Shown in pieces: positions 33,456 through 40,287 of a DNA stretch of 64,000 nucleotides. The DNA comes from Clostridiales bacterium (lineage in GTDB: Bacteria; Bacillota; Clostridia; Christensenellales; Pumilibacteraceae). The stretch is taken from contig JAFLVD010000004.1 in the NCBI GenBank assembly GCA_022508485.1, positions 1,495 to 65,494 on the forward strand. Reading direction: 5' to 3'. The notes under the pieces are model-generated. The model was not told where the DNA came from. It worked only from the letters and a program-made list of their open reading frames with translations, and did no database searches. The number at the start of each line of letters is the position of its first letter. Position 1 is the stretch's first letter. The position numbers and the translations under genes were made by a program.

Positions 33456-34466
33456 ATGAAAAAAAAGGTCGGCATAATCGGATTGGGGCTTATCGGCGGC
33501 TCTATAGCGTACGCGCTGCGCAACGTGTTCGATATCGTGTTTTACGATACCGATACTTTTACGCGCGAGTATGCGGAAAACAACGGCTTGGGTCGCTTTA
33601 CGCCCGTCGAGGACATGAAAGAATGCGAGGCCGTGTTTGTTTGCGTGCCTCTTGCCGTAACTAAGTCCGTTTTGGAAAGTACGGTAAAGCTTTTGCCCGA
33701 CGTGATTGTAGCCGACGTGGCGTCGGTTAAAGAGCCGTTCGATTCAGTGGGCGGCAGGTATGTGGGTACTCACCCTATGGCAGGGACCGAAAAGGGCGGA
33801 GTTTGCGCCGCAAAAGCGCACCTATTCGAAAACGCGTACTGGATTATAACGGCATGCGGCGGCGACGCCGAAGTCGTAGAAAGTATAATTAAGCACACCG
33901 GCGCAAGGCCGGTTAAAATGACGGCGAGCGAGCACGACAAGGCGGTTGCTTTTTTTTCGCACGCGCCGCACGCCGTTTCTTATTCGCTCGTTTCGGCTTC
34001 CGTGGGGGAAGCCTCGCCTATAGCCGGCAGCGGCTTTTTCGACACGACGCGCATTGCGGCGTCCTCGGGCGAGTTTTGGTCGGAGGTTTTTAAGCAAAAC
34101 AAGGACAACGTTTTGTTTGCGCTCGGCCGCATAGAAAAAGAGCTTGATAAAATCAAGGCTTTGCTCGGCGCGGACAGGTACGACGAGCTTGCCTCTTACA
34201 TGAACGCCGCAAAGCTTAAACGCGAGGCGATATTTTACGGCGAGGCGTCGGGCGAAGCGATCTACGTCGATCTCGTCGACAGAATCGGCGAGTTCGAGCG
34301 CATTACCGGAAAGCTTGCTTCCGCCGGGATTAACGTTAAATCAATCGCGCTTATGCCGGGACGAGAGGGCGCCGGCGGCGCGCTCAGGCTCGAATTCGAA
34401 AGCGGCGCGGACGCTCTTCTCGCAAAAGCGGCGCTGGGCATTACGGAAGATAAGGAGAAGAAATGA
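33456..34466 (+). CDS. tyrA: Prephenate dehydrogenase with C-terminal ACT domain
   Basis: 336 residues. Makes 4-hydroxyphenylpyruvate for tyrosine. N-terminal NAD site VGIIGLGLIGGSIAYAL, the HPMAGTEKGG loop that binds prephenate, then FFSHAPHAVSYSLVSA with the second conserved His. Residues from about 265 (IYVDLVDRIGEFERITGKLASAGINVKSIAL) form an ACT domain, likely the tyrosine feedback site. The ribosome site is weak. It leads the operon; its stop overlaps the aroC start (ATGA). Confidence 0.9.
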   Translation: MKKKVGIIGLGLIGGSIAYALRNVFDIVFYDTDTFTREYAENNGLGRFTPVEDMKECEAVFVCVPLAVTKSVLESTVKLLPDVIVADVASVKEPFDSVGGRYVGTHPMAGTEKGGVCAAKAHLFENAYWIITACGGDAEVVESIIKHTGARPVKMTASEHDKAVAFFSHAPHAVSYSLVSASVGEASPIAGSGFFDTTRIAASSGEFWSEVFKQNKDNVLFALGRIEKELDKIKALLGADRYDELASYMNAAKLKREAIFYGEASGEAIYVDLVDRIGEFERITGKLASAGINVKSIALMPGREGAGGALRLEFESGADALLAKAALGITEDKEKK

Positions 34467-35614
34467 TAGAATACATTACGGCAGGCGAATCGCACGGACC
34501 TATGCTCGTCGGGATTATCAAAAATCTACCGGCAGGGCTTGCGATTGACAAAACGTTTATAGACGGCGAGCTGGCGCGCCGTATGCTCGGCTTCGGGCGC
34601 GGCGGCAGAATGAAGATAGAGCGCGACGCCGCGGAATTTGTTACCGGCGTTCGCGGCGGAAAAACGCTCGGAAGTCCGCTGACCGCGATTATTTATAACC
34701 GCGATCACGAAAACTGGAAGGACGTTATGGGCTTTGCCGCAACGGACGACGGCATGGCGAGTAGGCGAGTTACAGCCGTTCGGCCGGGACATGCGGATCT
34801 ATCCGGTTCGGTTAAATACGGCTTTAACGACGCGCGTAACGTCTTGGAACGGGCGTCCGCACGCGAGAGCGCAATGCGCGTATGCCTGGGCGCGGTCGCC
34901 AAACTGTACTTGCGCGAACTGGGTATCGAGATTTACAGCCACACGGTTTCTATCGGCGGCGTTACTGCGGAACAAACAGCCGACTTTAAAAACATTAACG
35001 AACGCGCGGACGGCAATCCCGTGCGCTGTCTCGACGAAAAGGCAAGCGTACTGATGCAAGATGCGATTTCCGCGGCAGGCGAAAAGGGCGACACCGTGGG
35101 CGGCGTTACCGAGATTGTAATTATAGGCTGTAAGTCGGGAATAGGCAGTTACGTTTCGAGCGACAGAAAGCTCGACGGGATTATTATGAGCGAGGTGGGA
35201 TCGGTCCAGTCCGTTAAGGCGGTGGAAATAGGCGACGGGATAGTAAACGCGTCGCTTTTAGGCTCTTCCGTTCACGACGAGCTGTTTACGAAAAACAAAA
35301 AGCTTTACCGCAAAACCAACCGCGCCGGCGGACTCGAGGGCGGAATGAGTAACGGCGAGTCTATCGTTATCCGCGCTTACTGTAAGCCCATTCCCACTCT
35401 TAAATGCGGACTTAATACCGTGGATATCGAGAGCGGAAAGGCGGTAAAAGCCACGCCTGAGCGAAGCGACGTTTGCGCAGTTCCAGCGGCAGGCGTCGTG
35501 TGCGAGGCCGCCGCGGCGCTTGCGCTTACGAAAGCGCTTAGCGACATGCTCGGCGGCGACACTATGGACGAGGTAAAAGCTCGGTACGAGTTAAAGAGGT
35601 CGTTTAATGGATAA
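34463..35614 (+). CDS. aroC: Chorismate synthase
   Basis: 383 residues. Flavin-dependent final step from EPSP to chorismate. Recognised by MIEYITAGESHGPMLVGII, GRGGRMKIERD, RPGHADLSGSVKYG, the AREsAMRV run (ASARESAMRVCLGAVA), GLEGGMSNGESIV and the late TPERSDVCAVPAAGVV. Length is standard. Start overlaps tyrA by 4 nt and its end overlaps aroB by 8 nt, so translation is coupled through the operon. Confidence 0.95.
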   Translation: MIEYITAGESHGPMLVGIIKNLPAGLAIDKTFIDGELARRMLGFGRGGRMKIERDAAEFVTGVRGGKTLGSPLTAIIYNRDHENWKDVMGFAATDDGMASRRVTAVRPGHADLSGSVKYGFNDARNVLERASARESAMRVCLGAVAKLYLRELGIEIYSHTVSIGGVTAEQTADFKNINERADGNPVRCLDEKASVLMQDAISAAGEKGDTVGGVTEIVIIGCKSGIGSYVSSDRKLDGIIMSEVGSVQSVKAVEIGDGIVNASLLGSSVHDELFTKNKKLYRKTNRAGGLEGGMSNGESIVIRAYCKPIPTLKCGLNTVDIESGKAVKATPERSDVCAVPAAGVVCEAAAALALTKALSDMLGGDTMDEVKARYELKRSFNG

Positions 35615-36614
35615 GGTAAGCAATATTCTTTGCGGAAAGGATTTAACCGAGGACGCGGCGGCGGCGATAAAAGAATGTAGATTTGTCGTAACGGACAGCA
35701 ATCTCGCGTCGCTTTATCCCGAGCTTACTTCGGGCGCGTTCGTTATCCCGGCAGGGGAAAACAGTAAGCGTCAAAGCGTGCTGTTTAACATTCTTTCCGC
35801 AATGCAAAAAAAGGGGATTAAACGGTCGGACAGAGTGTGCTCTGTCGGCGGCGGCGTAGTGAGCGACATAACGGGGCTTGCCGCGGCAATGTATATGCGC
35901 GGCGTGGAATGGGTCAATATCCCAACCTCTCTTCTTGCAATGGTGGACGCAGGTATCGGCGGAAAAACCGCTATCAATTTTAACGGCGTAAAAAACCTCG
36001 TCGGGGCGTTCCACCTGCCCGAAAGAATAGTTATTTCCGCAATCTTTTTAAAAACTCTTCCCGATCGCGAGTGGCTTGACGGCGCCGGCGAACTGATTAA
36101 AACGTGCCTTCTTACCGAGGACGCGTATAAGGCGCTAAACGCTAACCTCGACGGACTGAAAGCAAAGGATATTGACAAGGTGTATCCGCTTATATCGCTT
36201 TGCGTCGACATTAAAAACGCCGTCGTAAAAGCCGACCCCAAAGAGGGCGGACTTAGAAAAATTCTCAACGTGGGACATACGGTCGGACACGCGCTCGAGA
36301 GTATCGAAAAGTACAAGCTAAGCCACGGCGAGTACGTTTTAAAGGGCATGATGACCGAGCTTACAATGTGCAAGGATATTGTCGATAATAGCTTTTACCG
36401 CGAGATTTTGCCTATCCTTCGCTCGTTTACGAATCCGCCTACCGCCGCGGCAAGCGCGGTGTGCCGCCGTTCGCTTTCCGACAAGAAAAACGACGCGAAT
36501 ACGATTTCGGTCATGGTTCCGACGTCGCCGGGAAAGGTAACAGAGGTCAAAATGCGGCAAGACGATTATAAATCGCGCTATGCTTCGGCGTTAAAGGAGT
36601 TGAATGCTTTATGA
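35607..36614 (+). CDS. aroB: 3-dehydroquinate synthase
   Basis: 335 residues. Closes DAHP to 3-dehydroquinate using NAD and a divalent metal. Motifs: PAGENSKRQS, VCSVGGGVVSDITGLAAAMYMRGVEWVNIPTSLLAMVDAGIGGKTAIN, the metal ligands Glu in GAGELIKTCLL, His in LNVGHTVGHALE and a later His in LSHGEYV. It is about 20-25 residues shorter than typical AroB (about 360), mostly at the N-terminus. Overlaps aroC by 8 nt and aroA by 4 nt. Confidence 0.93.
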   Translation: MDKVSNILCGKDLTEDAAAAIKECRFVVTDSNLASLYPELTSGAFVIPAGENSKRQSVLFNILSAMQKKGIKRSDRVCSVGGGVVSDITGLAAAMYMRGVEWVNIPTSLLAMVDAGIGGKTAINFNGVKNLVGAFHLPERIVISAIFLKTLPDREWLDGAGELIKTCLLTEDAYKALNANLDGLKAKDIDKVYPLISLCVDIKNAVVKADPKEGGLRKILNVGHTVGHALESIEKYKLSHGEYVLKGMMTELTMCKDIVDNSFYREILPILRSFTNPPTAAASAVCRRSLSDKKNDANTISVMVPTSPGKVTEVKMRQDDYKSRYASALKELNAL

Positions 36615-37861
36615 GCGTTACGACCGTAAAAAAGCTTGAGCGTTACGACAAGGTAATCGACTGCATGCCCGATAAAAGCATGTCGATTAGATCGGTGCTT
36701 TTTAACGCGTACTCGATAGGAAGCGCGACGGTTAAAAACCTTCTTTTAAGCGACGACGTTCTGTCGTGTATAGACTGCGTGCGCCGACTCGGCGCTTCCG
36801 TCGAGCTTGACGGAACAACCGCGCATATTAAGGGCGCGCCATTTGTCGGCGGAACGCTCGACTGCGGCAATTCGGGAACGACGGCGCGGCTTTTAATAGG
36901 GCTACTCTCGGGGCTTAACGGCGTGTTTACGTTAATCGGCGACGAGTCGCTGTCATCTCGTCCCATGAAACGAGTTACCGATCCGCTTAAAGCGATGGGC
37001 GCGAGAATAACCGATACCGACGGACACCTGCCCGTTAAGGTGGTAGGCTCGCCCCTTCACGGAATAGATTACGATATGCCGGTAGCGTCCGCTCAGGTAA
37101 AAAGCGCGATACTTCTCGCCGGGCTTAACGCGGAGGGAAAAACGACCGTCCGCGAAAAAACGGTAAGCCGCAACCATACCGAAAACATGCTTTCCGAAAT
37201 GAACGCCAAGCTAAGCGTAAACGGCGCCGCCGTCTCTGTTGAGCGCAGCGTGATTTACTCTAAGGATTTTACGGTGGGTGGCGACATTTCTTCCGCGACT
37301 TATCCGCTGTGCCTTGCGCTTATGGTAAAAGGCGGAAGGTGTACCGTTAAAAACGTCGGCATAAACAAAACGCGCACCGGGCTTCTCGACGTGTTTAAAG
37401 AAATCGGCGCGGATTTTACTTTATCCAACGTAAAAGAGGGCGCCGAGCCGACTGCGGACGTAACGGTAAAGCAGGGAAAACTGAAACCGTTTAATATAGG
37501 CGGCGAGCTTATTCCGCGCCTTGTAGACGAAATTCCGGCGCTCTGCGCGCTCGCTTGCTTTATAGACGGGGTAAGCAGGGTGAGCGGCGCGCGCGAGCTT
37601 AAAGTAAAAGAGACGGACAGAATATCGACGACGGTCGCCGCGCTTAAAAGTCTGGGCGCGGATATAGAAGGAACCGACGACGGCATGATAATAAGGGGAG
37701 GAAGGCCGCTCAAATTCGGCGTGGCTGACAGCAAGCTCGACCACCGTATAGCAATGTCGGCGGCGATTGCCGGCGCCGCAGGCGACGGCGTTAAGATAGT
37801 GGACGCGGAATGCGCGTCGGTAAGCTACCCCAACTTTTTCGGCGAGGTGATAGGTGTATAA
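36611..37861 (+). CDS. aroA: EPSP synthase (3-phosphoshikimate 1-carboxyvinyltransferase)
   Basis: 416 residues. Joins PEP to shikimate-3-phosphate. N-terminal PDKSMSIRSVLFNAY, LDCGNSGTTARLLIGLLSG (PEP-binding segment), GDESLSSRPMKRV, VASAQVKSAILLAGL and the C-terminal ELKVKETDRISTTV and DHRIAMSAAIAG are present. In the glyphosate-relevant loop the sequence reads DCGNSGTTAR, class I-like at the Gly-Thr/Ala positions; sensitivity cannot be deduced reliably. ATGA overlap with aroB; aroE begins 8 nt before its end. Confidence 0.95.
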   Translation: MSVTTVKKLERYDKVIDCMPDKSMSIRSVLFNAYSIGSATVKNLLLSDDVLSCIDCVRRLGASVELDGTTAHIKGAPFVGGTLDCGNSGTTARLLIGLLSGLNGVFTLIGDESLSSRPMKRVTDPLKAMGARITDTDGHLPVKVVGSPLHGIDYDMPVASAQVKSAILLAGLNAEGKTTVREKTVSRNHTENMLSEMNAKLSVNGAAVSVERSVIYSKDFTVGGDISSATYPLCLALMVKGGRCTVKNVGINKTRTGLLDVFKEIGADFTLSNVKEGAEPTADVTVKQGKLKPFNIGGELIPRLVDEIPALCALACFIDGVSRVSGARELKVKETDRISTTVAALKSLGADIEGTDDGMIIRGGRPLKFGVADSKLDHRIAMSAAIAGAAGDGVKIVDAECASVSYPNFFGEVIGV

Positions 37862-38630
37862 GTTGGCGTTACTCGGCAGGGATATAGGCTACACAAAGTC
37901 GCCTGCCGTTCATAAGGCGATAGCGAGAGCGTTCGGAGTCGAGGTGGATTTCGAGGTGTGCGACGTTACGCTCGATAAGCTCGACGGCGCGGTTAATTCG
38001 CTTATGGAAAGCAAGGACGCGTTTTTTATAACAAAGCCGTATAAAAACGACGTAAAAAAATACTTGTCGAAGATAAACACCAAGTGCGGCGTTAATTTTG
38101 TTTTGTGCCGCGAAAAATCGGGGTACAACACCGACGGCGTAGGGTTTATATCTTCGCTCGACGGGACTTATCCGTCCTGGCGCGGCGAAGTGGAAAGCGC
38201 GCTTGTTCTCGGCGCCGGCGGCTCGGCGTACGCAGTTACCGAAGCGCTAATAAACGCCGGAAAAAAGGTGTACGTATTAAACCGCACGCTTATGAACGCG
38301 GCAAAGCTTTGTTCTCATCTCGGTGCGGAAATATACTTAAACCAGCCTGCGGAACTTATTGTTAACTGTACGAGTCTCGGGCTTCACGGCGAGGACGCGC
38401 TGTACACTCTGTGCGTTATGCCCGGCTTTAAATACGGCTTCGACCTTGTATATTCGGGCGGCGAAACTCCGTTTCTGCGCCGGCTGAGAGAAGCTGGCGG
38501 CAAGGTGAAGGACGGCATGGACATGCTCGTGTACCAGGCGATAGCAGGCGATAAAATCCTTTTGGGCGACGATTCAATCGATACCGAAAAGGTTTTTAAG
38601 AGTGTTAATAAAATTTTAAACGAAGGTTAA
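37854..38630 (+). CDS. aroE: Shikimate dehydrogenase
   Basis: 258 residues from GTG, with GAGG 6 nt upstream inside the end of aroA. Reduces 3-dehydroshikimate with NADPH. Substrate motif SPAVHKAIARAFG, the catalytic Lys in ITKPYKNDVKKYL (the family usually has NVTxPxK), NTDGVGFISSL, and the cofactor loop LVLGAGGSAYAV followed by VLNRTL, whose Arg favours NADP. Shorter than the usual 270-280 residues. Spaced 15 nt from aroQ. Confidence 0.9.
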   Translation: MYKLALLGRDIGYTKSPAVHKAIARAFGVEVDFEVCDVTLDKLDGAVNSLMESKDAFFITKPYKNDVKKYLSKINTKCGVNFVLCREKSGYNTDGVGFISSLDGTYPSWRGEVESALVLGAGGSAYAVTEALINAGKKVYVLNRTLMNAAKLCSHLGAEIYLNQPAELIVNCTSLGLHGEDALYTLCVMPGFKYGFDLVYSGGETPFLRRLREAGGKVKDGMDMLVYQAIAGDKILLGDDSIDTEKVFKSVNKILNEG

Positions 38631-38645
38631 AAAGAGGAAAGCATT

Positions 38646-39065
38646 ATGAAGATTCTTGTTTTAAACGGACCTAATCTCAACATGACGGGAAAGCGCGAGG
38701 CGATATACGGCGCGGAAACGCTCGACGAGATTAACGCGCGCATAGCAAAAGCGGCTAAAAAGAAGTGCGTCGAGGTAGAGTTTTTTCAGTCGAACGGCGA
38801 GGGCGCGATAATAGATAAGCTTCAAGCCGGCGGCTTCGACGGGCTTATTATAAACGCCGGCGCGTACACCCACTATTCGTACGCCATTTCGGACGCGCTC
38901 TATTCCGTAAAGGCGAAAAAGATAGAGGTGCACATGACCAACATTCTCGCGCGCGAGGAGTTTAGAAAGACAAGCGTCATATCCAAAAACTGCGACGGCG
39001 CGGTAATGGGGCTCGGCGCCGACGTGTACTTGCTCGCGTTGGAGTATTTGACATGGGGAATATAA
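38646..39065 (+). CDS. aroQ: 3-dehydroquinate dehydratase, type II
   Basis: 139 residues. Dehydrates 3-dehydroquinate. Type II signature: KILVLNGPNLNMTGKREAIYG with the catalytic Tyr at YGAETLDEI, FFQSNGEGAIIDKLQ, IINAGAYTHYSYAISDAL (catalytic His), and VEVHMTNI with the family's HLSN-type loop reading HMTNI. Good ribosome site AAGAGGAAAGC. The last 13 nt overlap aroK. Confidence 0.93.
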   Translation: MKILVLNGPNLNMTGKREAIYGAETLDEINARIAKAAKKKCVEVEFFQSNGEGAIIDKLQAGGFDGLIINAGAYTHYSYAISDALYSVKAKKIEVHMTNILAREEFRKTSVISKNCDGAVMGLGADVYLLALEYLTWGI

Positions 39066-40219
39066 CCCTTAAACGAAAGCTTGCCCTCATCGGGCCGATG
39101 GGTAGCGGAAAGAGCAATCTTTGTCGCCGCCTTACTAAGTTTTTCGGTTATAAGTCGTTTGACACCGACAAGGAATTCGTTGCGCGCTACGGACCGATTC
39201 CCGAATTTTTTTCAGCACACGGCGAGGCTGAATTCAGGTCGATCGAGTGCGAGCTTCTTAAAGAAGCGGCGGCTTCCGGCGTCGATATTATCGCGACGGG
39301 CGGCGGCGCGGTGCTTAACAAGCAGGGAATGAACGCGCTTAGAAAAAACTGCGATATAGCGTATCTTACCGCGCCGATAGAGGTATTAAAGACGCGGATA
39401 GAGCGCAGCGACAGACCGCTTAAAAACGACATAGAGCGCATAATGGAAGTGCGCGCGCCGCTGTATAATAAGTACGCGGACTATGTGGTGGATTCTTCGG
39501 TCGACTCGCTCGCCGAGCTTGAAAAAAAGCTCGCTCTTCCTCGCAGAAACCGTTACGATATCCTTCTTGTCGATTCGGACGACACAATACTCGACTTTCA
39601 TTTTGCGAGCGCGTACGCGCTTAAAAAGACGCTTAAAAGCCTTAACGTTTCGTTCGACGGCGACCGCGCGGTGGAATTGTTTCGCCCGATAGTTAAGGAC
39701 GTGTGGGCGCGGCTCGAGCGCGGCGAGATAACTCGCGACGAGCTGTTTACTCTTCGGGAAAGTAATTTCGGAAAAGCTATTGGCGTTAACTTCGAGGTGG
39801 GTCGGTTTACCGCCGAGTACAGAAAAAACCTCAGAGAAACGCAGTTTGTCCGAGACGGCGCAATCGATTTTTTAAAAAGCGTTCGCTCGCGCGGAATAGC
39901 GGTTTACATAATCACAAACGCCGACGTTTACTGCGCAAGCAACAGACTTGTTCCCGTTTTGCCGTACGTAGACGGCGCGTTTATCTCGGAGGAGGTAGGG
40001 TTCGCCAAGCCGGATAAACGTTACTTCGACGTCGTTTTCGGCAGGCTCGATAATCCAGATAAAAACAGGGTTGCGGTTTTCGGCGACAGTGAGTCGTCCG
40101 ATATTGCCGGCGGATTGAATTACGGACTGGACACAGTTCTGTATGCGCCGAGCGGACAAAGAGAAACCGCCGCGGACTTTACCGTTACAAGCTACGACGA
40201 GTTATTGTCGCTCGTTTGA
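39053..40219 (+). CDS. aroK: Shikimate kinase fused to a HAD-family phosphatase
   Basis: 388 residues in one uninterrupted frame. Residues about 8-165 are a complete shikimate kinase: P-loop LIGPMGSGKSN, FDTDKEFV, FRSIECELL, TGGGAVLNKQGM and the lid Arg segment RSDRPLKND. Residues about 168-388 are a complete HAD-IA hydrolase of YjjG type: motif I VDSDDTILDF (D, D), motif II IITNADV, motif III Lys in VGFAKPDKRYF, motif IV FGDSESSDI. All catalytic residues of both halves are kept, so both should be active. Last gene of the operon; GGAG lies 9 nt before the ATG within aroQ. What the phosphatase acts on is not evident. Confidence 0.9.
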   Translation: MGNITLKRKLALIGPMGSGKSNLCRRLTKFFGYKSFDTDKEFVARYGPIPEFFSAHGEAEFRSIECELLKEAAASGVDIIATGGGAVLNKQGMNALRKNCDIAYLTAPIEVLKTRIERSDRPLKNDIERIMEVRAPLYNKYADYVVDSSVDSLAELEKKLALPRRNRYDILLVDSDDTILDFHFASAYALKKTLKSLNVSFDGDRAVELFRPIVKDVWARLERGEITRDELFTLRESNFGKAIGVNFEVGRFTAEYRKNLRETQFVRDGAIDFLKSVRSRGIAVYIITNADVYCASNRLVPVLPYVDGAFISEEVGFAKPDKRYFDVVFGRLDNPDKNRVAVFGDSESSDIAGGLNYGLDTVLYAPSGQRETAADFTVTSYDELLSLV

Positions 40220-40258: not shown

Positions 40259-40287
40259 TTGTCAAAAAACGCAATAACTGTTATAAT
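40259..40287 (+). promoter_or_regulatory. Sigma-A promoter of the hexose-phosphate mutase gene
   Basis: TTGTCA, 17-bp spacer, TATAAT, with a leader of about 85 nt before the ATG at 40379. A second TATAAT at 40358-40363 has no -35 partner. Confidence 0.7.

Follow-up and report, generated by a model that had tools for sequence, protein, structure and literature searches.

In-frame fusion of shikimate kinase to a YjjG-like phosphatase in the genus of Anaerocaecibacter muris: two halves that look functionally separable

The last gene of a shikimate operon in a Clostridiales bacterium with a 2.07-Mb genome encodes a shikimate kinase (SK), which the synthesis of aromatic amino acids requires, and a HAD-IA phosphatase in one frame, with the catalytic residues of both intact, which confirms the core of the original prediction. 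The gene lies in a window of 64,000 nucleotides (the whole stretch of DNA that was analysed, to which positions refer). Our preferred reading, which we regard as reasonably probable, is that of a bifunctional protein in which SK is accompanied by an independent housecleaning-type phosphatase of shifted specificity, fused for the sake of co-expression. The N-terminal half would be the cell's only SK, and the C-terminal half an active HAD-IA phosphatase that came from a YjjG/YfnB-type nucleotidase and became attached, in frame, behind aroK in the genus ancestor, placing two enzymes side by side in one protein. Such a fusion would secure co-expression with the aromatic pathway without the need for a shared reaction, and the phosphatase would hydrolyse a small phosphorylated metabolite independently of the kinase, in a substrate pocket moved away from that of YjjG. 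We infer that the fusion serves co-expression and, from the sequence, that both halves are catalytically active and that the specificity of the HAD half has shifted.

The reading frame runs for 388 codons without interruption (ATG 39053 to TGA 40219; Table 1). The Pfam SKI profile matches residues 16–152 (104.9 bits against a cut-off of 22.1 for PF01202), the SK domain of the protein being residues 8–152, and the HAD Hydrolase profile (PF00702) matches residues 168–356 with an E value of 3e-17. The kinase residues present are the P-loop (G14-x-MGSGK20), D39 of DTD and R62 for shikimate binding, the GGG at 83–85, the LID arginine R121 of RP and R134 of RxPLY, and those of the phosphatase are D174-x-D176-D-T (motif I), T288-N289 (motif II), K319 (motif III), and D345 and D350 (motif IV). 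All of these residues are invariant across the 17 fused proteins, save T288, which is Ser in one. The AF2 model of the whole protein is confident throughout (pLDDT 95.8, pTM 0.91), its N-terminal half matches shikimate kinases (4y0a), and neither the Pfam search nor the model contains an allosteric domain.

Table 1 Features of the fusion gene, its operon and the related aroE-aroK genes (window positions unless a locus is named).
Feature	Position	Strand	Basis
tyrA, prephenate dehydrogenase, first operon gene	33456..34466	+	family profile matches
aroC, chorismate synthase	34463..35614	+	family profile matches
aroB, 3-dehydroquinate synthase	35607..36614	+	family profile matches
aroA, EPSP synthase	36611..37861	+	family profile matches
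aroE, shikimate dehydrogenase	37854..38630	+	family profile matches
aroQ, type II dehydroquinase; end overlaps fusion start by 13 bases	38646..39065	+	frame and profile matches
SK-HAD fusion gene, 388 aa	39053..40219	+	one open frame; PF01202 and PF00702 matches; AF2 model
SK half, approximately residues 1–160	39053..39532	+	PF01202 E 6e-30; genome's only SK; fold match 4y0a
Interdomain linker, residues 161–166 (PRRN region)	39533..39550	+	alignment; coil 161–169 in AF2 model
HAD-IA phosphatase half, residues 167–388, YjjG/YfnB type; D174 nucleophile, D176 acid/base	39551..40216	+	TIGR02254 score; YfnB 3i76 match
Residue 214 codon: Asn in 40/40 stand-alone YjjG relatives, Val in window	39692..39694	+	
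Residue 295 codon: Gln in 40/40 stand-alone YjjG relatives, Ala in window	39935..39937	+	
Extended -10 promoter-like site between fusion and phosphoglucomutase-family gene	40259..40287	+	11/12 matches; pattern match only
aroE-aroK fusion, 408 aa, second operon of G009, G010, G011	L052:8057-9283, L053:7327-8553, L054:7960-9186		

Placement at the end of a shikimate operon, also part of the original prediction, is borne out by the gene order tyrA-aroC-aroB-aroA-aroE-aroQ-fusion, with a promoter-like site separating the fusion from the phosphoglucomutase-family gene that comes next. Transketolase, which supplies erythrose-4-phosphate, is encoded downstream of the fusion. The fused SK is the sole SK of a genome whose aro operon is otherwise complete; exactly one SK exceeds the Pfam cut-off in each of the 20 genus genomes, and in 17 of these it is the fused one.

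The genus, one of gut bacteria, is that of A. muris (Pumilibacteraceae, Clostridia, in the NCBI taxonomy), and the isolate A. muris CLA-AA-M11 (G001) was included. Within a search of 74 family genomes, the fusion was found in one frame in 17 of the 20 genus genomes, the window included, and in none of the others. Sampling 396 genomes of the order, 391 of the class and 399 of the phylum likewise gave none outside the genus; the samples partly overlap and amount to more than 800 distinct genomes, over 780 of them outside the genus, and fusions with another domain order or strong divergence would escape such limited samples. The fusion thus stands up both to the possibility of a frameshift and to that of absence in close relatives. 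An assembly or frameshift artefact is ruled out by the identical frame in the genomes of 17 species, among them an isolate whose assembly has a coverage of 444 according to its contig name. Matches in Halieaceae (L125, L149 and L166, residues 9–271) were considered as an independent second fusion and rejected; there the SK frame hits a stop and aroB follows. In the openly accessible literature that was searched, we found neither an SK-HAD fusion nor a shikimate-3-phosphate phosphatase. One sister-genus genome (G036), and only that one, encodes SK and transketolase as one in-frame fusion protein (837 aa, L070:2112-4625, - strand), with a different partner at the same operon position.

The 17 fusions are 44–84% identical to the window protein (the window included in the count). 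In close pairs, dN/dS was 0.05–0.23 for the SK half and 0.13–0.20 for the fused HAD half, and comparisons involving stand-alone HADs gave 0.10–0.15; these are simple Nei-Gojobori counts and, with dS approaching or exceeding 1 in several cases, should be read as rough. Both halves are under purifying selection, and so are the stand-alone HADs. Could the HAD half be catalytically unimportant, and instead help the kinase to fold, dimerise or be regulated? In the AF2 model the halves are packed together with high overall confidence (pTM 0.91), which such a role would explain and which a fusion for mere co-expression would not require. However, the nucleophile, acid/base, Lys and metal Asp are invariant in all 20 genus proteins, stand-alone HADs included, and the HAD half persists where the fused kinase is gone, making this explanation highly improbable.

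The HAD half belongs to the YjjG/YfnB family, a point absent from the original prediction. TIGR02254 is its best HAD family match in 17/17 fused proteins, and the closest solved relative is YfnB of B. subtilis (3i76; TM 0.90 on the target, rmsd 1.8, 32% identity). E. coli YjjG acts on pyrimidine monophosphates, with approximately 500-fold discrimination against ribose-5-phosphate (PMC10116470; PMC8475336), and has been described as a housekeeping or house-cleaning nucleotidase (review PMC8475336). The housecleaning role suggested originally for the phosphatase therefore fits the family and is plausible as a class of function.

If the HAD half were an ordinary pyrimidine nucleotidase (for dUMP, dTMP, UMP or non-canonical analogues) merely carried by aroK, the family match and the YfnB structure would be readily explained, as would the cap residues W218, E222 and R235, kept in 20/20 genus proteins, and the rank of this HAD as the top YjjG match in every genome of the genus. 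Nevertheless, the window protein scores 136.9–138.7 bits against the curated TIGR02254 cut-off of 159.9, which none of the 20 genus genomes reaches (best, 158.3). Two amide residues that are kept in all 40 stand-alone relatives compared, E. coli YjjG and B. subtilis YfnB among them, are changed: Gln295, after motif II (TNGxxxxQxxR), is lost in all 20 genus proteins and Asn214, in the cap, in 19 of them. In addition, two residues are deleted after R298, and the stem branch leading to the genus clade in the HAD tree is long (0.85). Since amide side chains often read pyrimidine edges, the loss of residues 214 and 295 suggests a changed substrate, but these positions may instead be structural. On this evidence, a nucleotidase with its substrate unchanged appears rather unlikely.

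Genomes of sister genera (G028, G030 and G062) have a plain aroK and no HAD in the shikimate operon, and the YjjG-type genes inspected in sister genera sit away from aro genes within the fetched DNA. Given the plain aroK and the HAD-free operons, the most likely origin of the fusion is the joining of a YjjG-like gene to aroK in an ancestor of the whole genus.

Although the HAD half is retained in 20/20 genus genomes, three of these (G009, G010 and G011) lack the fused kinase. In the operon slot of the fusion they encode a HAD of 231 residues that stands alone, adjoining aroB or aroE and preceding the phosphoglucomutase gene. Their SK is encoded by an aroE-aroK fusion gene (Table 1) of a second shikimate operon, and the aro proteins of that operon share only 26–48% identity with the native ones; this second operon appears to be a foreign gain with its own SK. 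Similar aroE-aroK fusions are seen in the family genomes G037, G058 and G060. Intermediate states are represented by G014, G015 and G002, with foreign aroA, aroC and aroQ and native aroB, aroE and fusion. G010 (L051, L053) retains native aroB, aroA and aroE alongside a complete foreign shikimate gene set, a pathway replacement in progress.

All genus proteins fall into one clade of the HAD tree (support 100/99), inside which the stand-alone HAD of G010 groups with G003 and G002 (82/76), and those of G011 and G009 group with G013 (83/65). The stand-alone HAD of G011 and the fused one of G013 share 81% identity. A single clade of fused proteins only is rejected (AU p 0.00018). A tree of neighbouring genes (phosphoglucomutase, transketolase and AroB) also rejects a fused-only clade (p 1.5e-5), as well as a single clade of the three stand-alone genomes (p 1.7e-7). 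Because the stand-alone HADs are scattered inside the fused clade, the ancestral state is the fusion, from which the kinase half has been lost at least two times; the two trees rule out the stand-alone HADs as a pre-fusion state. The stand-alone proteins start with VRPNKYD, VQRNKYD and HRQNRYD, compared with PRxNRYD at the corresponding place in the fusions, and relatives outside the genus have no such start; linker residue R164 is retained in 19/20 genus proteins, stand-alone HADs included. Judged from these sequences, the N-termini look like a remnant of the linker.

Retention of the phosphatase after loss of the fused kinase indicates that it works without that kinase, and counts against a dedicated balance on shikimate-3-phosphate. 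Such a balance had been part of the original prediction and gains no support, given the persistence of the HAD under purifying selection in the three genomes and the HAD-free shikimate operons of sister genera. Shikimate-3-phosphate could still be a substrate of the HAD, because G009, G010 and G011 have another SK. More broadly, the two halves might act against or around each other, with the HAD dephosphorylating shikimate-3-phosphate, a side product or an upstream intermediate (erythrose-4-phosphate, DAHP or a damaged form) and thereby balancing or repairing the pathway. The fusion to SK, the operon position, the downstream transketolase and the changes at candidate specificity residues all fit this explanation; so does the finding that, wherever a fetched contig spans both native aroB and the HAD, the genome has kept the two together. 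We nonetheless consider it improbable: at least two losses of the kinase half left the HAD in place, the protein has no allosteric domain, the HAD of sister genera is unlinked to the pathway, and a shikimate-3-phosphate phosphatase would create a futile ATP cycle. The persistence of the HAD in its slot could reflect a role tied to the adjoining aroB, phosphoglucomutase and transketolase, that is, a link to the pathway. In one form of this idea, which we likewise hold to be quite unlikely, a phosphatase of new specificity would repair a phosphorylated by-product, or limit its amount, where the shikimate pathway begins (the transketolase/DAHP/AroB side); if so, the fusion would point to a metabolite-repair step not yet described for aromatic biosynthesis.

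Both halves resemble known systems, although with differences. The fused SK shares with AroK/AroL (PF01202; PDB 4y0a, 2iyz) all substrate and nucleotide residues, the location in an aro operon and the status of sole SK, but carries a C-terminal phosphatase and a LID loop (window 39413–39466) that is 3–6 residues shorter than in sister-genus kinases and typical SK. SK is also part of multidomain proteins in the AroK-AroB fusions (PRK13951, PRK14021), AROM and the SK-type regulator PRK08154, where its partners are pathway enzymes or a DNA-binding part, whereas here the partner is a phosphatase. The HAD half has the fold, cap type and catalytic motifs of the YjjG/YfnB family (TIGR02254; HAD-IA; PDB 3ed5, 3i76), and departs from it in score, in the lost amides and the deletion described above, in its fusion to SK and in being encoded in a shikimate operon. 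PFK-2/FBPase-2 likewise unites kinase and phosphatase in a single polypeptide, where they work in opposite directions on one metabolite. In contrast to that regulatory pair, the phosphatase described here outlives the kinase, occurring without the fused kinase in three genomes that each have another SK; thus, a common substrate of both halves is not indicated.

A domain fusion fixed in a genus normally hints at shared function. Here, nature has carried out the separation, since more than one lineage discarded the kinase but retained the phosphatase. The parts of this Rosetta-stone fusion therefore look separable in function. The analysis also draws attention to a small phosphatase that should be easy to assay and whose substrate pocket has putatively changed. 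Should this enzyme act on a metabolite of the aromatic pathway, that pathway would gain a repair step; otherwise, the protein would neatly exemplify fusion for co-expression alone.
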